This document shows positions 3,001 through 56,683 of a stretch of 64,000 bases of DNA, in pieces (positions within the stretch are counted from its first letter, which is position 1; each line of letters opens with the position of its first letter). Position numbers and translations under genes: made by a program. The stretch lies in assembly GCA_008508345.1 (NCBI GenBank), contig QNGE01000404.1, positions 113,225 through 177,224 of the forward strand, read 5' to 3'. Source of the DNA: Paragonimus westermani. Its lineage: Eukaryota > Platyhelminthes > Trematoda > Plagiorchiida > Troglotrematidae. The notes beneath the pieces are model-generated. The model did no database searches and was not told where the DNA came from. It saw only the letters and a list, made by a program, of their open reading frames with translations.

Positions 3001-4721
3001 AGACCGAACTTGAAAAGAGTGAGTACCACCATGTGTATATAACGGGCTGCAAAGTGAAGGTGGATAGAATATGTCTGCTGGGGTTAGCATTGAATGCCGA
3101 TGACAAATCCAGCAAACTCTAAACAACGCTTTACAGATTAAAATCGTACTATCAAACGAATAGTTGGGAGGTTTCAAACCGGACGTTTGACATCTTACAA
3201 CCAAATATCAGTGAAATCAGCTCACTTACATCAACAGCCAAAATCTTCAATGATCCATAACTGTGCGTACACGAACTTTCTTGATTAAAATTGAACGGAA
3301 TAACGCATAAAATATTGTTGTTAAGCTTTAAACTTGTTCTCCCGAGGGTTGCACATTACAACTGGATTCAAAGGTGCTATCTGAAAATCTTTGTGATCAA
3401 TTGACTGACCCGTAGGTACCTTCACAAACGGTCACTAAGAAAGTGAATTCGATTTTCATGCAGTCTAGTTATAGATATTTGATTCAGGAGAAGGAGAAAC
3501 CGAAGGATAACCAACAAGCAGGCACATTACAAAGTACAATGCAATAATATTATGTCGAAACAAAAGAAGTTCTTGAGCACAGAGAATCTCAGTAGTGTGG
3601 AGTGTTTTCACAGGATACCTACTTCAATGAAATGTATTAACCTGGAAAAAGGGATGCTGGAGAATATCGCTCGACCGTAGTTGAAAGAGCACTTTTCCAG
3701 ACTACTGAGAGACGTGAGCAAGAAATAGGTGGTTATTGGGGAAAGGTTTTGAGGACTTACAATAATATGTCCTCTTAGTTAGTGACTGAAGAAATCACAT
3801 ACGGACGGTATACCGCTGCGAGTTACTTTGGATTTACATTATTTAATGCGTCGTACCACGATAAAATGATTGAGCTAGTCGGTGGAACGGATTGGAATAC
3901 AGTTATCCACATACAAGTTAGGTAGGAGCATTTGAATTTACCGGTTTTTACCGGGTGTTCCCTTCCGATTTTATCTTTCCTGTTCTGTAATACTTTTGAA
4001 CGAGAAAACAAATTTCTTGCATGATTACTAACAGCATTGAAAGTAGCAGTAGGTTATAATTAGATAATGAACGCTGGCAATTTCTGGTAGTTGATTCCCG
4101 TTTGTTAGAAACGCTCATTGAGAGCAAGATGGGATAATGGGACTAGTACTACCTTAGCTCCACCACTCTGAGATTTACGCGGCAAAGGCTGAACGATTCC
4201 ATTTGTTATATTCCATTAGATAATGTGGATTTGGTGGGCACTTTGTGACATCAAATAGATCACTTGTAAGGCAAAATTGTAGGAGAATTATTAACACAGC
4301 GAAGCACAAGCTATAGCGCTCACGGGTGTCTTGCTAAAACTTAGTAACAAGAAGTTGCACTCGTTTCGGATGTCCAATTTTTACGTCGTCTGGAAAGTTC
4401 ATTGAGATTGGGTTACGCAGTGTGCAATTTATGGCAGTTTGGTAACACTGGAGGCAAACTTATCCGCTGACTTCCACATACCGTCACACAGATCCGTTCC
4501 TGTGGCATTGTTGAAAATGAAAATAATTGTATTCACGGCAAGTATTTATGGGAATTGGCTGTTTGAACCCACCAGATGGGCTAAAGTATGGTAGGTGATA
4601 GGACGAGCATTGGTACCCATACCGCAAATAAAGGGTTTTCTGACTTTCTCTACAACAGTGTCATGTAAAATGTCTTGTGTAGTGACACTTCGTTTGCATC
4701 TCATCGATCACTTTTTCGAAA
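1..4721. other. Stretch with no supported gene
   Basis: I see only short open frames (108 codons at most) on both strands, none with recognisable domains, and no clear repeat. It is AT-rich non-coding DNA, either intergenic or a long intron. Confidence 0.5.
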
Positions 4722-4873
4722 TTAACATACACTTTATATAGTAGGGTAGGAAGCAGCTAGGCGGAATCAATCTACTCATGTCTGAGTCAGTCAGTCAGGT
4801 GACCAAACCGGAAGCAGCAAGGTGCAACTGAGGAGTACTCATTAGTAAGAAACATGAATTTTGTGCAACACAA
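4722..4873 (+). repeat. Left inverted arm of the Penelope-like element
   Basis: This 152-bp arm is the reverse complement of 5414-5567 with about 17 differences. It starts TTAACATACACTTTATATAG and ends GCAACACAA. It contains the tandem CAGTCAGTCAGTCAGG-like run near 4789-4799. Confidence 0.8.
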
Positions 4874-5413: not shown

Positions 5414-5567
5414 TTTGTGTTGCATCAAATTCATGTTTTTCAACTAATGAGTACGCTTTAGTTGCACCTTGCTGCTTCCGGTTTTGTCACCTGACTGACT
5501 GTCTCAGACATGACTAGATTGATTTCGCCTAGCTGCTCGCTACCCCACTATATAAAGTGTGCGTTAA
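5414..5567 (-). repeat. Right inverted arm of the Penelope-like element
   Basis: Reverse complement of the arm at 4722-4873. The shared block includes GGAAGCAGCAAGGTGCAACT and ACACTTTATATAGT. Differences are scattered substitutions with one small indel near the inner end. Confidence 0.8.
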
Positions 5568-6409
5568 GTTAACAAAAGTAACCGATAGAATGCGAACGAA
5601 ATGTCAATGTGCAAGACATCTTACATGCTGCTGTTAACTTTTATCAAATTAACCGATGGGAACCAATGTCTCGAACTTCCTACACAACATAAATACTAAA
5701 ACAATAATGAAGAATTAAGGGGCTCCGTTGTCGATACGCGTTTTGCTGCGCAGGTGTAATCCATACTGACTTTTTTTTCAGAATTCCCTCTTCAGCCAGA
5801 CGTTAAGTTTCACATAGGTGCTGCTTTTTACTACGAACTTCAATACGAACAAGCCACACAGGTCGTACAACACAACACTTATCAGAATGGCATTTTGAGT
5901 ATCTTCCCGCTTTCCTGCGAAACAAGTCAAAGTGTCAACAATCCTCATTCCTTTTGTCTTTAGTCAACCACTTGTTGCGAGTTGTCTTGAAATAAGTCAA
6001 CCTTCACATCTGAATGATAGTTGGCACCACCAGACTTTGTTTACACTCTTCCTCTCTGGGTGCATAATCACATTTCATATATGTGTTGAACCTGACACCT
6101 CTGTTTTTTGAAGGTCATGGCGAACGTAGCATAAATAAACTATTTGCACGTTTTCATCCATTCATTTGGTAGTCAAACCAATCAGTTTCCGCTTTACATA
6201 ACTGTGGCTTGGTATCTGATGTTTTCACTCCCGCGTTATATACCATCATCACTTCCTTCAAACCAGTGGTCCGGCTACCCCACTCATGCCAGCCAGTTCG
6301 TAGAGAAGTCAACTAGCTGTTTATCTAGCAGCTATCAGAACGAGAGGATAACCTGAAGATTACCTACAGGAGAAAGTGGCTAACTGTTCATAGGTGATTC
6401 AGTTAGCAT
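5568..6409. other. Stretch with no supported gene
   Basis: Nothing recognisable; only short open frames. Confidence 0.5.
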
Positions 6410-6650
6410 CTAAGGTGGTCACTGAAATAGTATTTAACAGGGTTACCCCTTAGGGGTGCGGGCGGAGCTTAGTACGAAGCGTAGACAATAAACCGCATAT
6501 CTGACAAGCTCTACCAAAGAAGAACCCCGAGCATTCTGTGCCATTTAGAAGGAGACCGACTGAAAAATCTATCCGAATGCGAAATCTACGAACAAATTTA
6601 AGTGATGTCCGTCTCGCATACGGAATTGTAACTAGTCGAATGATAAAAAG
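6410..6650 (+). repeat. Decayed hammerhead SINE copy
   Basis: Along most of its length this follows the family seen intact at 16950-17160. GTATTTAACAGGGTTACCCC aligns with the A-box flank GTGGTTAACACGGTTGCCTC. CTGACAAGCTCTA (6499-6511) aligns with the ribozyme core and stem II. The tail AAAATCTATCCGAATGCGAA (6563-6582) aligns with GAAAGTCTATCAGAATGCGA. The core has a CTGACGA to CTGACAA change, stem II is destroyed, and GAAAC is lost, so this ribozyme is dead. Confidence 0.55.
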
Positions 6651-14352: not shown

Positions 14353-16712
14353 TAGAGGTAAGCATCAACTCATCATTGAGATGTTCGTGAATAAAAGGAC
14401 CGCAGGGAAGAAGCCGAAAGGAATTAGAATTTCAAAACGACTATACACAATGCATCAAAATAACTAACAGTTATCACAGAGACAATCGGTCAGCCTACTT
14501 CCTACAATTCATTCAACTAAGAATATGGAATTCTCTTCTAGGGGTGTCCGATTTGAACAATGAACCACCAGAAATGATAGAACATACACGAGTAATTTCA
14601 CCGTCTTTCTTTACATCGGCAACGCACATTTTCATCCACACGTGAAGAATACAACTTGAGAAACGGATCAGAAGCCTGGAGTTTTCATCATACAGCCTTG
14701 CCACGGTTGAGATTAGAACAGTGGCTACACTTTCACGAGAGAACCTCCTTGACTTTTGCACCATCCACCTCACTTTAAGCACCAACGGACTGTCGTATCT
14801 GAGCACTCAACCGTTTCTGATACCTTGTAATTCTCAGGTTTTCCGATCGTTCATAAGTAAACGTTGTTAAACCGTACTAGGCGTTGATGTGCGGTTCATT
14901 GCTGATAGGTCTTATACATATGGATATGGAGGATGAATCGATAAATGCACGATAAACAAGACCTATATAGACCTATATAGACCGTGAATTTACGTACTCT
15001 GTCAGAATTGCATTGCTTGTCTAAGATAACTTCCGTCGGTGAACTTAACGAACCACTGTACGTGACCATACTATCAACTCTCGCATGAGCTGACACTAGC
15101 TGTTAAAAGAAGTTCTATCATCGGGTTGAATCCAAATTGGACAACAAATTGAGAGATATTTTGTTAAATTTTCTGAAAAAACAACTTAATGAATCGAATA
15201 TGAGTAAAACTTGAAGAAGAGGTTTGTTGAAAGACGACGGATGTGTAAATGGATGTGTTTGCATTCCATGTGACTGACAGATGGTGTTGAAACTGGCAAA
15301 CCGCATGATCTAGACGAGTTTTCAGTCCTACCTGCAACATCTGTTTGAAGTTGAGCTGCTGTGTTTCGGGACTAACACAACTTTGCGTAACCTGTTGGGT
15401 AGCTCATCAGTAGCGCGACATATTGATAAAATGTCGGTTTATACAAAAAGCTACTTATTGCTTAACTTCAACTTCAAAGTTGCATTTCTGAAGTTGGTGA
15501 ATCCACTTACAACACACATTGAATCCTTTTGATGAGAGGCCCAATAGAAAACTGTAAAACCTTATCTGGTGAAGCGACTATTAGAACGCCACATGAAAAA
15601 TCAGGCTATTCAGAAATAACATCGAGCACCATGATTACACGCAGTTTCCTTTCAAATTTAGTCCGGAAACAGAGTTACATAACAAATTTATTCACGCTGG
15701 GATGCACTTGCGATTAAGTGACCAATTAATGATGGAATCTTCTTACTGGTTGTTATTGCCAACTGGGGATGAACACCGTTATATTTGCTGCCACACTGTT
15801 AAAACAACTCACTGGCTGGTACAGTATTATACTGCCCAGACTCGGACTCACAATCTCTAAACGGCCTGTGAGTTTAAAACAGTTAGACTTCGTAAGTCTG
15901 AACAAAGCGGTAAAAAGACGAAAGCTGGTAGATGCTAGCATTTCGTATTGCCTCTTCCCTACCAAATAACAGAAAACCAGCAGTACATGTATGCACATAA
16001 CACTGACAGGGCGTGAAATGGAGAAATAGATTTGAAAGTGGGCAGAAGATACTCGTAATCCACTGCTACCTTCAGCAAAGAAAGGACAATATATCGGCGT
16101 TAGCCCCCATTGTGCTGATCAGTGTGTTCGTAACCGCGGTGAAAATTAGATCGGCAGAACCCGTGTATGCGTGACCTCTAGGATGATGGGACATCTATCA
16201 GATTGGGTTTAGAATGAGACGGCGCATTCTAGTTCCCTCATACCGGGATTACGCGAACCTTCGACTTCAAGTATCACCCGACATATCTTGTTCAATGATC
16301 GTCGGATTAGGCTAGAATCGACATTGGGGACCAACGTGCGTCACGCCAGTCCGCATTTTGACAGATCGGTCGCGATGGGCTGTTTCAAGTCAGCAGTACG
16401 TGTACAAAAACAATTACTTGTAAGTCTTAGGCTCCCGCTTACCAAACAATTTTGTGCTCTGCCCTGCATCTCACTGGTATTCCTGGCCATTGCCATCTGG
16501 CACTGAACAGGCGATGTAGGACTTCTGAGGTAGCAGTGACTTGAAACATATGGTCTCACAACCATTTGATAGGATAATATTTGTCTCAGTTCATTTTTAA
16601 TGCAGTTAAGTGTAGGATTAAACACACTCGATCGCAAATTAACATTAGGCAATCAAGCTACTTTCCGGTAATGTGAAAAATAATTAAGTCAAATATTTAG
16701 AAACGTTTTTGT
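14350..16712. other. Stretch with no supported gene
   Basis: The longest open frame is 97 codons on the minus strand (14806-14513), ending in a stop. I do not recognise it, and its length is within chance for this base composition. There are no repeats apart from a short TATATAGACC duplication near 14965-14985. Confidence 0.5.
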
Positions 16713-16961
16713 CAAATCTGAACGCTCAACCACTCTCGCTTGTAAGCAATAGTCAGGTTGCCCGATTGTCTCGAGAGGAGACACGGTTACTGCCTCTTAA
16801 CTGCAATCGATAACCCCGCGATTAGGACTTCCAAGACAGGTCAAAATCTCCGATCTCATTGAACCTGCAAGGCGATATTTTAGATTACTGATCATTGCTC
16901 ACAAACGAGGGTGGTTGAGCGTTCCGATCTGATAATTCGGTCGTACCTAATGTGAGGTCAT

Positions 16962-17015
16962 TGGCGCAGTGGTTAACACGGTTGCCTCATGATTGGAATG
17001 GCCGGAGTTCAAATC
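16962..17015 (+). promoter_or_regulatory. Pol III type 2 internal promoter (A and B boxes)
   Basis: TGGCGCAGTGG at 16962-16972 fits the A-box consensus TRGCNNAGYNGG. GTTCAAATC at 17007-17015 fits the B box. The start-to-start spacing of 45 bases is tRNA-like. A run of four T at 17083-17086, just past the ribozyme, could end a Pol III transcript. That would give an RNA of about 135 nt made of a tRNA-like head plus the ribozyme. Confidence 0.7.
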
Positions 17016-17034
17016 TCGGCCGTGGCAAGGATAT

Positions 17035-17079
17035 GCACTACTGACGAGCTCTAATGAGAGCGAAACTCGAGTCTAGTGC
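17035..17079 (+). ncRNA. Hammerhead ribozyme, type I, minimal stem III
   Basis: All core elements are visible. Stem I pairs GCACTA (17035-17040) with TAGTGC (17074-17079). The CUGANGA core is CTGACGA (17041-17047). Stem II is GCTCT/AGAGC with loop AATG (17048-17061). GAAA is at 17062-17065. Stem III is A-C-U paired with A-G-U around a two-base CG loop (17065-17072). The predicted cleavage site is after C17073 in a GUC triplet. The very short stem III is the arrangement known from Penelope-like elements and metazoan retrozymes, where dimerisation or loop contacts are thought to aid activity. It lies 20 bases downstream of the B box. Confidence 0.9.
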
Positions 17080-17190
17080 TTCTTTTCGAAAGAGGCTGGC
17101 TGGAAAGTCTATCAGAATGCGAACGCTGCGATCAAATGTGAGTGATGGTCAACTTGAAAATAAACCAAATCCCCGAATACTCATCAGTAA

Positions 17191-33990: not shown

Positions 33991-34285
33991 GTAAGCATAC
34001 TGCCAAAGTTATCTCACCGCTGTCGGAGTTTTCAAGTAACTGTTTGGGGCATCCATATATCTTGTGAGTACTGGGTATTCCCATTCATTGAACCTTATCA
34101 GTATAACTGCCAAACACTGACAACTGAAATCAACCATCCAAGGGGAGAAAATAGTGTGAGTTACAGTCTCAGTCTTCTTGCATAAATTTTGTACATACGT
34201 GTATATGCAGATACTTGTTCGTGGTATAAGCTGCTTGCGTATATCACTCGGAAATAACCAATGATTTCAAACATATTCGACTTAC

Positions 34286-34561
34286 AATGCATGGTGGGGT
34301 ATCGGATTTCAGAGGCGGTATGATGGTTTCCGAATAGATTGGGTCAAGATCATCACTGCGAGCTGATGCCTCACACGGCTGCAGGAAAGGCACGTTTGCT
34401 TTTGGTGGTTGACGAGCCAATAGTAGGCTGGCTGTGTTTTGACTCCTTTGGAACAGTTCTATCACTTGTTTACGTGACCGCACAAGCTGACTGTTGATTT
34501 TGATGATCCGATCACCTACCCTAACATCGGCACCGTTGGAAGCCACGCTGTTTGTTTCAAT
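34286..34561 (-). CDS. PDZRN3/PDZRN4-like E3 ligase, second half of PDZ2
   Basis: This internal exon of 276 bp (92 codons, phase 0 at both ends) has acceptor TTCTCAATCCGACAG and donor ATT|GTAAGT. It reads IETNSVASNGADVRVGDRII, then KIN, QLV, RSRKQVIELFQRS and NTASLLLARQPP. This is strand 3 to strand 6 of a PDZ domain, with the usual GDRIIxIN turn and a final helix and strand. Of PDZ families I can recall, PDZRN3/4 PDZ2 fits best: it shares I(E/D).NS(V/I)A, GDRII.IN, R....(I/V).L and (L/I)ARP at the same spacing. A PDZ-RhoGEF is the main alternative. The tail is a Pro-rich linker with DDLDP. PDZ domains bind C-terminal peptides of membrane partners; here that is inferred from the fold. Confidence 0.75.
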
Positions 34562-36650
34562 CTGTCGGATTGAGAAGAGATGAACATCACGTAAGATTTG
34601 GGGTCTAAATGTCAGGTTGGAAGTTATTACAAATTTCACGTAAAAACTATTTTGTATGTTATGCTGGCTTGTTTGGCTAGTATCAGTAGGTAGGAAACTG
34701 CAGATAATATCCAAAACCGCTCACACCTTGCTGACTTACAAACGAACCTTGTTGACGCATGTCTCGTCTTTGCTTTTAGTTCATAATGACAACAGACGAA
34801 ACTTGTTCGAAACTAGATGTTACTTAGATGTGTTTGTACAGCAAACACTTGTGCTTGTCATTTGCTTACGTAGCAAATCGCTCTGAACTTATTTGGTCAC
34901 TGCGTCTGCTGTGCTGTCAAGGACACGGTACAAACAATGATGTCTATCTTGCTGAAATCTGAACAAAGGAGTCGAAAAAAACTTGTCGTAAGATGCTTTT
35001 GCAATCTCAACCACAAATCTCTGGTACCAGAGACATATGTTGCGTTGACCGCTGTTCAGTGTGAGTAAACGGAACACATATTTGTCGAAGATGTATACCG
35101 CCAAGAGAGATTAGAAAGAGTCTGGGTGAAGCACATGTTAAAATGAGTATAGCACTGATTAAAAACTGGACACGACCTTTTTCACTGGTAATCTTGCAGA
35201 GTTCAGATGAATGGACACGAAATACTTCATTCTTACTCGTTTGTTTCACTTGCGCTGAGGTATACTGGAGGGGCACCCGCTTCTCTGAGATAAAAAAATC
35301 AAGTGGTCCCCCGTACGCTAGTTGCAGCAACCATCTTTCAGGTGACCACTGACCAGTGCCAGTGATGCACGGTTATTCTTCACAAGAACGGTAGTTGAAG
35401 GTCACAGGCATTATGAGGAAAGGTGAATTGTGCGTTGGTTTGCTTTGGAATGGCTAAAACCGTTGGATGAAACCAGTAGCTTTCCCATACTTTGTTCCGG
35501 TCAGAATAGTACACCTTATTGTAATCCACGTTCCGATTTACTGCATGGTCCTAAGCGTAACTGCTACTGAGCGGGGGCTTAGTAACATTTCTAAAACCCC
35601 TGAATGCGCGTCATGTCTGCGTAGTATACCAGAAGGCTACTGTCAGTTAACAAGTGCGGGCTGCGTGACTGCAGTTTATACTTAGGAATTCCATGTACTC
35701 AACGCCGGTGCTATATGAGGAATTCAAGTTTCTCGGTGACATATGACGTAAAGCCAATTTAACTAGTCGCGATGCTTTTAATACACTGGATTCCCTTCAC
35801 AATGAAAGCTTTTCTGATGCATGTACATACAACGAAGTCTACCACATTTTCTGTCAGTTTCATTGTTGTATCTGAAATACGTTCGTGTTTCTGCAACGTC
35901 AGTAAAAATTGATGGACACAGTCCCTAGTCGAGTTGCTGGAACTATGGACGAGAAACATGTTGAATGTACCTCATCGATGCATGCATAACAATCATCTAC
36001 GTCCAGTGGACATTTCAATGAACTATTCAAGTTTGACAACGCCGAAACTCGGGTTTGATTTTCGCACGTACTGTAGCACTAGTCCGCTGAAAAGTTCACA
36101 AGAGTGAACAAAAATAGCTTAAACAACAAGAGAACGAAAGATGACCGTTCATTTGTACACCGCTTGACCACCCAGTACACAGACATGTCTTCGATCCAAC
36201 AGCATTCAGTCAAAGAAGACAAAAAGTGACAGCACAAAGTCATGAGGTCGTTCGGCCGACCTAATGTCGAGAAATAATAAGTATTGGGACGCAATAATGA
36301 GACAACATTTTGTACGAACAGAAAATCCGACACATACTCAAATGTATTTACAACTATTTGAGAAGTGGAATATATTAGTGATCCCTTCAAACATGCAATA
36401 CACTTGTTAGTAAACCAGTTAGTTGTCCACCAGTTATTTGATAAGATGACATTAATCACGTTGAAAATAAATATCTGAGTGCGTTCACAGGTTGCCCATT
36501 TTTCAATATGGTTTGTGTAAGCACTATGAGCTGACCATTTTTAAGCCAAAAATACTTAGTGACATTAGATTGAACACCACTCAGTTGATCATGGATTTCG
36601 TCAGTCCATAGATGTTTTAATCAGCTGGCTTTAGAAAAAAACACTGAATT

Positions 36651-36735
36651 CGCATTTAACGCTTGTTAGAGCTCGTCATTACTGCATTTCCTGGCCACTG
36701 TCGAAATTGGGACTGTGGCCAAGCTTCAGTGTGCT
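36651..36735 (-). repeat. Decayed hammerhead SINE fragment
   Basis: The plus-strand run TTAGAGCTCGTCATTACTGC (36666-36685) followed by CTGGCCACTGTCGAAATTGGG matches the family's stem II/core and B-box region read antisense. The ribozyme core C3 is changed to A (ATGACGA) and stem I is broken. Confidence 0.6.
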
Positions 36736-39499: not shown

Positions 39500-39625
39500 A
39501 CGTGATAGTTCGATGGTGGTTAATGTGAGATGACTGGTGAAATGGTCAACATGGCTGCCTCAAAAAAACCTAGAGTGGTGTTAAAATCCTGATAGTAACG
39601 ACGGTAGGTGTTACATGTGTATCTT
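39500..39625 (+). repeat. Decayed hammerhead SINE fragment (tRNA-like head)
   Basis: TAATGTGAGATGACTGGTGA and ATGGTCAACATGGCTGCCTC (39541-39560) follow the family's TAATGTGAGGTCATTGGCGC and GTGGTTAACACGGTTGCCTC. A weak B-box relic, GTGTTAAAATCC, follows at about 39580. The ribozyme part is not recognisable. Confidence 0.55.
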
Positions 39626-41319: not shown

Positions 41320-41460
41320 CAGCGGGTTCCGGAAAGACGTGCTAGATTCTTGGTTCATTTTTCTAAGAGCTTGCCAATAGTGCACATCCTTGCCAGGGTC
41401 AGGATTACAACGTTGGCCACATTTCCAGGAGGCTAGTGATCTGACCAATGCACGGTCGAT
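41320..41460 (-). repeat. Decayed hammerhead SINE fragment with dead ribozyme
   Basis: On the minus strand the order is an A-box relic (ATTGGTCAGATCACTAGCCTC), CCAACGTTGTAATCCTGACC at the B box, then GGCAAGGATGTGCACTATTG. Past that lie GCAAGCTCTTAGA and TCTAGCAC, where the ribozyme core, stem II and stem I should be. CTGACGA has become TTGGCAA and GAAAC has become GAACC, so cleavage is not expected. Confidence 0.6.
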
Positions 41461-51276: not shown

Positions 51277-51863
51277 NNNNNNNNNNNNNNNNNNNNNNNN
51301 NNNNNNNNNNNNNNNNNNNNNNNNNNNNNNNNNNNNNNNNNNNNNNNNNNNNNNNNNNNNNNNNNNNNNNNNNNNNNNNNNNNNNNNNNNNNNNNNNNNN
51401 NNNNNNNNNNNNNNNNNNNNNNNNNNNNNNNNNNNNNNNNNNNNNNNNNNNNNNNNNNNNNNNNNNNNNNNNNNNNNNNNNNNNNNNNNNNNNNNNNNNN
51501 NNNNNNNNNNNNNNNNNNNNNNNNNNNNNNNNNNNNNNNNNNNNNNNNNNNNNNNNNNNNNNNNNNNNNNNNNNNNNNNNNNNNNNNNNNNNNNNNNNNN
51601 NNNNNNNNNNNNNNNNNNNNNNNNNNNNNNNNNNNNNNNNNNNNNNNNNNNNNNNNNNNNNNNNNNNNNNNNNNNNNNNNNNNNNNNNNNNNNNNNNNNN
51701 NNNNNNNNNNNNNNNNNNNNNNNNNNNNNNNNNNNNNNNNNNNNNNNNNNNNNNNNNNNNNNNNNNNNNNNNNNNNNNNNNNNNNNNNNNNNNNNNNNNN
51801 NNNNNNNNNNNNNNNNNNNNNNNNNNNNNNNNNNNNNNNNNNNNNNNNNNNNNNNNNNNNNNN
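51277..51863. other. Assembly gap (587 N)
   Basis: Unknown bases begin 28 bases beyond the acidic exon's acceptor and end at a (TA)n tract. Open frames reported through it are meaningless. The gap probably reflects collapsed simple repeat and could hide sequence of any length. Confidence 1.
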
Positions 51864-54900: not shown

Positions 54901-55979
54901 AATTTCAACTCTCTGAGCAAAGATATGAGTTTCGTGTGCATATCGTTAGCTGATAGTGTGTGTACGATCAAAGTTGAGCAGACCATATTGAGCGGATAAC
55001 AAGCGGTCGGAAACATTTTTGTTTCAGTATTGCAAGTGGCTGAGGTGATCAGGTGCGACATTAAAGTTTGTTTACGTTCAAGGAGTTCACATTTTTTAGA
55101 CCAACAGAAACGAAATTCAGAACAGTGATACATTATTCAGTGAAGACTTTTCCAATGCAACGGAAAGGAAATGTTACACGGCGTTTTCGAATATCAGCAA
55201 GGAAAAGACTACAATGCGGTACGCAAGTTTATCCTGTGAATCAACTTTTATCACGATGTCAACTTTAAATAGTTTAATCTGAAAGGGGTGCTGTTCATTA
55301 AGTTTAGGTACAAAGAATAAGTACACATGCTTAGAGAATTTAATACTTTTGGAAAACATGTTGCAGTCATCGGTTCAACTTTGGGCAGGATGACGGCAGC
55401 CAATTGCTTGTCAGTGATCTTAGATGATTTACCAGTCGTATAGTTGATTCAAGTAATCTGGGCAATCATACGGTTGGCGGCATCCGATTCGGATTAGCCT
55501 GTCACAGTGACCGAAGCCACAGGACGCCTGCGCTTATCCATCACTGCAATTGGCTTGCGCTGAACCGATTGCAGTTCCACCAAAACATCACATATCCAGT
55601 GTAAACCCAAAGGAATAAGACCGGGAGGTGTGACAGTGGGGCCTTTCTTTCCAGCTGGCCAATCATACTACAGGAAAGATAGACAACCTCCCAGGTTCTG
55701 GTGTAACCACCCGGTGCGGTTAGCCTGATGCGAACTTAAACATTTTGGATGATAACTTATATGTTGGTTATTAACCACTGAATGTCAAATCGGGTCCAGA
55801 ATGATACAGAGACTAAACACGAGGTATTTCACCTAAATTTGGCTCTGCTGATTTAATTACCATGCTGGGTGTATTTTCAAACAAAACTGAATGGAGATGC
55901 ATCTTACTAAGTTTAGCACTCAGTCTGATCCCTGAAGATAGCTATGCCCACATTGTTGGTTGAGTCTCCAACTATCTCC
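51905..55979. other. Stretch with no supported gene
   Basis: Only short open frames (112 codons at most). The upstream RING, TRAF-like and PDZ1 exons of the minus-strand gene could lie here, but I could not find them. One weak hammerhead SINE relic lies at 52.1 kb. Confidence 0.45.
52110..52175 (-). repeat. Possible decayed hammerhead SINE fragment
   Basis: The plus-strand run TATAGAGCCGTCAGTCTAGTG then AAGCCGGGATTTCC resembles the antisense stem II/core, stem I and B-box order of the intact copies, with the spacer shortened. The match is short. Confidence 0.3.
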
Positions 55980-56055
55980 AAGTTGACGATCACTCACATT
56001 TGATCGCAGCGTTTGCATTCAGATAGACTTTACAGCTAGCCCCTTTCGAAAAGAA

Positions 56056-56100
56056 GCACTAGACTCGAGTTTCGCTCTCATTAGAGCTCGTCAGTAGTGC
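56056..56100 (-). ncRNA. Hammerhead ribozyme, type I (downstream unit of the dimer)
   Basis: The 45 bases are identical to the plus-strand copy at 17035-17079 when reverse complemented. Stem I is GCACTA/TAGTGC, with core CTGACGA (56094-56088), stem II GCTCT-AATG-AGAGC, then GAAA and ACTCGAGT folding as a two-to-three pair stem III. Predicted cleavage is after C56062. Confidence 0.9.
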
Positions 56101-56119
56101 ATATCCTTGCCACGGCCGG

Positions 56120-56173
56120 GATTTGGACTCCGGCCATTCCAATCATGAGGCAACCGTGTTAACCACTGCGCCA
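56120..56173 (-). promoter_or_regulatory. Pol III A and B boxes (downstream unit)
   Basis: TGGCGCAGTGG lies at 56173-56163. The B box GTCCAAATC (56128-56120) has one change from GTTCAAATC. Confidence 0.6.
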
Positions 56174-56486
56174 TTGACCTCACATTAGGCACGACCGAAT
56201 TATCAAATCTGAACGCTCAACCACTCTCGCTTGTGAGCAGTGATCAGGTTGCCCGATCGTCTCGAGAGGAGACACAGTTACTGCCTGTTAACTCCAATCG
56301 ATAACCCCGCGATTAGGACTTCCGAGACAGGTCGAGATCACAGAACTCATTAAACCTGCAAGGCGATATTTTAGATTACTGATGAGTAGTCGGGGATTTG
56401 GTTTATTTTCAAGTTGACCATCACTCACATTTGATCGCAGCGTTCGCATTCAGATAGACTTTCCAGCCAGCCTCTTTCGAAAAGAA

Positions 56487-56531
56487 GCACTAGACTCGAG
56501 TTTCGCTCTCATTAGAGCTCGTCAGTAGTGC
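56487..56531 (-). ncRNA. Hammerhead ribozyme, type I (upstream unit of the dimer)
   Basis: Same 45-base sequence and fold as the other two intact copies. Core CTGACGA is at 56525-56519 and predicted cleavage is after C56493. Three identical ribozymes amid diverging flanks suggest either recent spread or selection on the ribozyme. Confidence 0.9.
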
Positions 56532-56550
56532 ATATCCTTGCCACGGCCGG

Positions 56551-56604
56551 GATTTGAACTCCGGACATTCCAATCATGAGGCAACCGTGTTAACCACTGC
56601 GCCA
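56551..56604 (-). promoter_or_regulatory. Pol III A and B boxes (upstream unit)
   Basis: TGGCGCAGTGG lies at 56604-56594 and GTTCAAATC at 56559-56551, with the same spacing as the copy at 16962. Confidence 0.7.
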
Positions 56605-56683
56605 TTGACCTCACATTAGGCACGACCGAATTATCACATCTGAACGCTCAACCACTCTCGCTTGTGAGCAATGATCAACTATT

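Follow-up and report, generated by a model that had tools for sequence, protein, structure and literature searches.

The 64,000-nucleotide stretch of the Paragonimus westermani genome analysed here (hereafter the window) carries three identical copies of a type I hammerhead ribozyme sequence, which belong to a short, tandemly repeated element with copies on many contigs. Directly visible in these copies are a 431-bp unit, two 3' ends, inverted pieces, target site duplications (TSDs) and runs longer than one unit, and the genome also contains genes of the Penelope-like element (PLE) type. We interpret the element as an Sm-alpha-like retrozyme, non-autonomous and non-coding, that is moved in trans by a PLE, a reading to which we give a probability of roughly 0.7; the mover, and likewise transcription, cleavage and circularization of the RNA, are what we infer.

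A type I hammerhead in three copies

An initial annotation of the window had reported the same 45 bases three times, and an exact search agrees, with one occurrence on the forward strand and two on the reverse:

17035 to 17079, forward strand: type I hammerhead, copy 1 (RF00163 34.7 bits, E 6.2e-5; predicted cut between 17073 and 17074)
56487 to 56531, reverse strand: type I hammerhead, copy 2, identical to copy 1 (RF00163 34.7 bits and exact match)
56056 to 56100, reverse strand: type I hammerhead, copy 3, identical to copy 1 (RF00163 34.7 bits and exact match)

The annotation had proposed a covariance search with the Rfam type I model (RF00163, Hammerhead_1), and all three copies match it over its full length (1-45) at 34.7 bits, against a curated gathering score of 34 bits. 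The parts it had listed are all present in the 45 bases as read from the sequence: a six-pair stem I (GCACUA/UAGUGC), the core CUGACGA...GAAA, a five-pair stem II (GCUCU/AGAGC) and a GUC cleavage triplet, and stem III is indeed reduced, to two pairs closing a UCGA loop. All three copies thus combine the CUGANGA core, GAAA, an NUH triplet and three helices with a score over the curated one, and by this model score the motif is a well-formed type I hammerhead, a predicted ribozyme.

The annotation had further likened the motif to the form known from PLEs and retrozymes. The comparison is apt, but stem I can be extended outward (AAGGA/UCUUU across a UAU/U internal loop, from the HH9 match and the fold), and so the motif is not simply the minimal PLE form; the two-part HH9 model itself gives a weaker match, 35.3 bits, under its cut-off of 52. 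In canonical type I hammerheads such an internal loop in the outward stem I is the kind of place where loop-loop contacts are made. Folding of the 45 bases alone is not clearly more stable than that of shuffled versions (12 of 200 at least as good), and unusual stability is also unsupported for the tRNA-like stretch (shuffles as good in 29 of 200), the extended ribozyme (38 of 200) and the tail (144 of 200). Judged by eye, an ATG in loop II, at 17054, may open a frame into the tail, as in an Anolis PLE, an impression from which we draw no conclusion.

A 431-bp tandem unit

The 45 bases do lie in a repeat, as the annotation had it, but in a larger one than the short repeat it described, one that has a tandem unit of 431 bp, two 3' ends and inverted 5' pieces. 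In the genome (823 Mb, 9701 contigs), a 321-base query around the motif gave 2651 first-look candidates, 40 of them scored, and 41 matches at 94-100%; a second query, which stopped short of both 3' sites, gave 1841 candidates (again 40 scored) and 41 rows, i.e. 1841-2651 candidate places by first looks.

The unit was read from the flanks of 29 loci (L042-L070) plus the two window loci, 31 loci together. In order, it comprises a spacer of 128 bp, some 75 bp of further sequence, the tRNA-like stretch with its A and B boxes, the hammerhead, and a tail 117 nt long. Positions within it are given as rot 1-431, ending ...CATCAGTAA at window position 17190, such that rot equals window minus 16759 and the predicted cleavage falls after rot 314 (window 17073). 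The direct run exceeds one unit at 17 of the 31 loci and reaches 911 nt at the longest. GC content is 0.478 (48%), and neither RT nor GIY-YIG endonuclease coding was found in the unit, whose longest stop-free stretch is 53 codons. In the window, the element is laid out as follows:

16888 to 17190, forward strand: insertion 1, direct part (rot 129-431, 96.4% to the unit of locus L043); ends at the far (long) 3' site
16712 to 16892, reverse strand: insertion 1, inverted piece, head-to-head with the direct part (92.3%; rot 424 across the unit boundary to 173)
16962 to 17015, forward strand: Pol III A box and B box of the tRNA-like stretch (A+B box regular expression)
17074 to 17190, forward strand: tail, from cleavage site to 3' ends; near site at about 17158-17169 (mostly 17160-17165), far site at 17190, placed from the 3' ends of other copies (rot 399-410 and 425-435)
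55973 to 56677, reverse strand: insertion 2, 705 nt, terminating at rot 403, the near 3' site (98.2% to the tandem unit)
56248 to 56375, reverse strand: 128-bp unit spacer between the two bodies of insertion 2 (unit anatomy from L043)

The direct part of insertion 1 holds the 5' unit part, tRNA-like stretch, hammerhead and tail; the outer end of its inverted piece, at rot 173, is at neither 3' site. Insertion 2 is over one and a half units head to tail with a period of 431, and its possible TSD scores 7, a value reached by 2.8% of control pairs. Weak matches to the unit (70-78%) at 36629-36721 and 41327-41419 on the reverse strand, and at 39503-39562 and 6544-6607 on the forward strand, would be either old remnants or related families. 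We also considered whether the tail might pair in antisense with the ribozyme core and lock it, and rejected the idea: 118 of 500 shuffles form a duplex that equals or betters the best one found, and the circular fold also lacks this pairing.

The tRNA-like character reported by the annotation stands in part. An A+B box pair occurs in the window only at 16962 on the forward strand and at 56604 on the reverse, hence in two of the three element copies (the third has a changed B box letter), compared with a mean of 0.1 and a highest count of 2 in 30 shuffles. The head is not recognizable as a real tRNA: in eight loci the covariance model RF00005 gave no match, even at an E-value limit of 1, and ARAGORN found no tRNA in the window; the head may be called tRNA-like on its boxes and a similarity judged by eye. 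The only T4 run of the unit directly follows the ribozyme, which makes Pol III reading on into the tail doubtful, and a Pol III stop before the tail would count against a PLE as mover.

Insertion footprint

The 3' ends of the copies cluster at two sites, which lie 87-96 and 113-121 nt past the predicted cut and are separated by about 29 nt. In the first sample, whose query extended past rot 431 and so favoured the longer form, 30 of the 31 direct parts extend to rot 431 (or up to 8 letters further, by chance matches), the exception being one in the window that stops at 403. In the second search, whose query stopped short of both sites, the best 28 of the 41 rows divide into 12 with the near site, 14 with the far site and two with other ends. 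Newly fetched junctions make up 20 of these: 12 lie at rot 399-410, with ten inside 401-406, a further six at 425-435, and two elsewhere (420 and 443); the remaining eight rows, the window copy among them, have far-site ends already given by the first search. All 3' end positions are accurate to a few letters, and the junctions printed show no poly(A) or short-repeat tail. A pair of clusters with this spacing is what a fixed 3' end past a hammerhead with an optional tail of about 30 nt, one signature of PLEs, would look like.

A second PLE signature is a head-to-head inverted copy that is shorter by the length of this tail. By our script's rule, an inverted piece adjoins the direct part head-to-head (5' end to 5' end) at 11 or more of the 31 loci. 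The outer ends of 11 such pieces fall at rot 401-405 in seven cases and at the far site in one; the other three, including the window's own, end elsewhere and count against a PLE mover. L045 and L062 also have inverted pieces, which fall outside the script's rule.

TSDs with a score of 9 or more (9-15 nt) flank 11 of the 31 loci, as against none of 2000 mismatched flank pairs, and are absent at the other 20, which weighs against a PLE mover; at a score of 7 or more the figures are 15 of 31 loci and 2.8% of the control. The direct parts have widely varying 5' ends: the 31 starts are spread over the unit with none fixed at the tRNA-like head, in a sample whose query favoured copies that extend to rot 129. 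No start lies at the cleavage site either, the query having chosen copies that cross the cut.

These ends bear on two other explanations. The first is that the element is a classical tRNA-derived SINE moved by a LINE, the usual assumption for SINEs, in which the hammerhead is a passenger or trims the transcript. The A and B boxes would suit such a SINE, TSDs of 9-15 nt are also compatible with LINE integration, and Schistosoma Sm-alpha and Sj-alpha are described, in the parts of those papers available to us, as SINE-like retroposons carrying a hammerhead (PMC2770079, PMC8490949). However, direct copies start anywhere in the unit and not at the tRNA-like head, and the pair of 3' ends 29 nt apart without poly(A) or short-repeat tail at the printed junctions, the tandem units and the inverted pieces ending at the near site are all features of PLEs. 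Our comparison of tails covered PLE regions. On balance we consider a LINE-moved SINE unlikely. The second explanation is satellite-like DNA spread by unequal exchange or extrachromosomal circles, with the ribozyme as a relic. Head-to-tail units with a constant 431-bp period would fit this, and hammerheads are known in satellite DNA, but the copies are dispersed on many contigs and reach only about two units in our sample, a third of the loci have target duplications, and the 3' ends are fixed; this explanation, already disfavoured, appears very improbable.

Cut, circular or multimeric template

Transposition by a PLE, our preferred reading, raises the matter of which RNA is copied. Since the sampled copies extend upstream across the cleavage site, and in many cases cover more than a complete unit, their template would not have been the cut linear monomer, an argument confined to the sampled copies because shorter products of cut RNA would be missed by the searches. 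Both a ligated circle and an uncut multimer fit the sampled copies. A ribozyme-made, ligated RNA circle, as in the retrozyme model, is a real possibility at somewhat under an even chance. In its favour, L054 has 15 variants common to both of its units, of which eight do not occur at any other locus covering the position; two rounds of copying of one molecule would give this pattern. Retrozyme circles are also reported as abundant in other animals (PMC7229834, in the portion available). Yet the other 16 multi-unit loci add a single shared variant, against 108 variants in one unit only, so that the test is driven by L054 alone; a homogeneous tandem source would yield the same sharing; and the Anolis PLE inserts RNA without ribozyme cleavage, ribozyme-dead RNA being inserted as well as live RNA in the available account (PMC11167929).

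PLE-type genes in the fluke genome

Genes of the PLE type were sought with an RT-motif pattern, presumed to mark them, which gave 109 matches in the genome versus seven for the reversed control. Each of the eight regions examined downstream of such matches reads, to the eye, as the end of a PLE-like endonuclease. The Pfam GIY-YIG model matched none of the four endonuclease pieces compared with it, a point against a PLE mover, and PF01541 (GIY-YIG) has one match in the genome; the putative endonuclease assignment thus comes from inspection by eye and from homologues of the RT. Among three RT pieces compared with RVT_1, one was over the cut-off, one weak (E 0.036) and one without a match. The piece over the cut-off, a 311-residue RT frame, matches RVT_1 at 7.8e-9 and has 2192 homologues; the 120 listed mostly combine PF00078 with PF26215, a domain that we take to go with PLEs, and among the matches listed one is named a GIY-YIG endonuclease.

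Two PLE families, L083/L104 (contig C1793) and L076 (contig C543), each with thousands of first-look places, allowed a comparison of 3' ends. These are fixed as well: in the L076 family, 39 of 39 other long matches end within query positions 216-226, and in the L083 family 39 of 39 end at 266. By arithmetic L076 ends 32 nt past a candidate ribozyme cut, the ribozyme being placed by eye where Rfam found none, and L083 ends 13 nt past that of a RAGATH-1 match below its cut-off. The fluke PLEs therefore resemble the 431-bp element in having a fixed end slightly past a possible hammerhead, and differ from it in the distance. The L083 PLE shares a further trait with the element, the head-to-head layout of an inverted piece of itself: 81 nt of its 3' region recur in inverted form (91%) upstream of the RT motif, at L104, and the outer end of this piece is exactly at the fixed 3' end common to the 39 of 39 other long matches.

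Two further observations weigh against a PLE mover. One is that no PLE with a matching tail was found among the regions compared: at E<=1e-2 the eight PLE 3' regions contain nothing that matches the unit, and of two PLE upstream regions one has just a chance-level 19-mer (E 0.026). The other is that the 3' distances of the element agree with those of a lizard PLE and not with the two fluke PLEs measured. In Anolis, reverse transcription starts 111-118 nt into the ORF and the hammerhead cuts at 26 nt (PMC11167929, as far as available), from which we compute a start 85-92 nt past the cut; given ends at 32 and 13 nt in the fluke PLEs, with their uncertain ribozymes, this agreement may be partly luck.

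A PLE as mover would account for the copies as follows. The unit would be transcribed into RNA, which may cut itself at 17073|17074. A PLE protein would bind the tail and copy the RNA into new sites, with reverse transcription starting inside the RNA at one of two sites, some 87-96 or 113-121 nt past the cut. The template would be a circle or an uncut multimer and not the cut linear monomer, and priming by both strands of the broken target would leave target duplications of 9-15 nt and head-to-head inverted 5' pieces.

Hammerheads elsewhere in the genome

With RF00163, the genome gave 42 matches at E<=1e-3, 35 of them above the cut-off (74 scored of 136,546 first-look candidates); none of 14 control genomes gave a match. 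We examined covariation in 31 distinct copies from two families, made up of the one in the window plus 30 taken from the 42 genome matches; the 12 left out were duplicates or differed in length. In these, 87% of helix cells are paired and 54 are double changes, compared with a mean of 21.4 in shuffled and 3-14 in slid versions, a concert that is partly built in because 30 of the 31 copies were found by a covariance model, which favours pairing. In the youngest copies, variation is no different inside the ribozyme (4.8%) and around it (4.6%), as expected of dead genomic copies. Old copies differ less in the ribozyme (11.5%) than in the surroundings (18.6%), yet this sample was picked by the ribozyme model, and we reject the difference as a sign of selection.

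A second hammerhead family (GTGGTGCTGATGAGACCC...) accounts for 28 of the 42 genome matches (e.g. L002, L004, L005, L006, L008, L016 and L037). Like the 431-bp element it has a tRNA-like head of its own (by eye), a type I hammerhead and inverted pieces; unlike that element its copies are diverged and its 3' ends lie at other distances past the cut, in 24 distinct loci at 152-170 nt (13), 184-189 nt (six) and 39-77 nt (five). A third family (CTCCAC...GTGGAG) comprises L017, L023 and L026. At L017 the head resembles tRNA-Ser/Leu by eye and HH9 scores 47.5 bits against its cut-off of 52; the region is 74-76% similar to a stretch about 0.8 kb beyond the endonuclease end of the PLE locus L081, either a possible PLE partner or an independent insertion. 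Some hammerheads (L009, L013 and L014; L010 and L011) recur on separate contigs, or in either orientation, with flanks that are identical or almost so, and represent either larger duplications or assembly duplicates.

Other features of the window and assembly

A reading frame at 34244-34720 on the reverse strand has a PDZ domain (PDZ_6, 1.8e-7) and is probably an exon of a host gene. The window also holds a 220-bp inverted repeat pair (4654-4873 and 5415-5635, 84% identical) and an assembly gap of 587 N at 51277-51863, adjacent to a (TA)n run. Mitochondrial COX1 of this genome, translated with the flatworm code, is 100% identical over 444 residues to that of P. westermani, with the next protein listed at 84%, which identifies the host as the oriental lung fluke or a species that COX1 does not separate from it. 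Additional COX1 matches, off the mitochondrial contig (C9701), lie at C7067:5-748, C3990:24587-25666 and C30:539457-540216, possibly a second mitochondrial contig or nuclear copies.

Relation to known elements and implications

The closest relatives by description are the hammerhead-bearing repeats of other flatworms and animals, known to us from the available parts of the papers cited here. Of the Schistosoma repeats, both Sm-alpha and Sj-alpha are SINE-like, the former being related to tRNA-Gln (PMC2770079, PMC8490949). As in Schistosoma, the P. westermani element is a trematode's short, dispersed SINE-like repeat with a type I hammerhead; compared with Sm-alpha, which we know by description only, it has a 431-bp tandem unit, two defined 3' ends and inverted 5' pieces. 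Metazoan non-LTR retrozymes, among whose hosts platyhelminths are named (PMC7229834, Cervera and de la Pena, 2020), have type I hammerheads in tandem units of 150-450 bp, a GC content under 50% and, when present, TSDs above 4 bp. The fluke element agrees on each count, with its type I hammerhead in a 431-bp unit that continues beyond one unit at 17 of 31 loci, a GC of 0.478 and TSD scores of 9 or more at 11 of 31 loci, and it is likewise non-coding. To this description it adds A and B boxes and PLE-type insertion ends; expression as circular RNA, another retrozyme trait alongside the lack of an LTR, primer binding site and polypurine tract, would be a further point in common.

A PLE was proposed as the helper of retrozymes in 2020, from shared hammerheads, tandem copies and co-occurrence (PMC7229834). 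The parallels with PLEs themselves extend to a hammerhead upstream of a fixed 3' end, an optional tail of about 30 nt, the head-to-head inverted copy, partial tandems and TSDs of about 9 bp; the difference is that the fluke element is without an RT or endonuclease gene. In the sections available to us, a typical bdelloid PLE insertion is a pLTR-ORF-pLTR with an adjacent inverted pLTR shorter by 37 bp, a 9-bp TSD and an optional 31-bp tail, and the pLTR sequences alone suffice for trans mobilization of an unrelated gene (PMC3846280). In the same limited sense, the tail of the Anolis PLE, 30-40 bp, is the stretch between two reverse transcription start sites, and both target strands are cut and extended (PMC11167929).

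The P. westermani genome paper stresses LINEs and LTRs in the part available, and we found no literature combining Paragonimus with a hammerhead ribozyme. The element thus belongs to a known kind, that of retrozymes and Sm-alpha, previously undescribed in the Paragonimus literature searched; nor, in the portions of the literature searched, did we find a PLE footprint described on an element of this kind or a demonstration of the helper of metazoan retrozymes. The copies described here carry the detailed footprint expected of a PLE, i.e. two start sites, priming by both target strands and shorter inverted 5' copies. It is conceivable, although we would place it a little short of even odds, that retrozymes and Sm-alpha-type SINEs form one PLE-dependent class of SINEs, in which a hammerhead with a two-start-site tail would serve as a portable pass that allows Pol III or other small RNAs to be copied by PLE proteins, and two 3' ends would be the footprint of the PLE enzyme in the genome. 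The finding bears on which machinery moves ribozyme-bearing repeats in animals.
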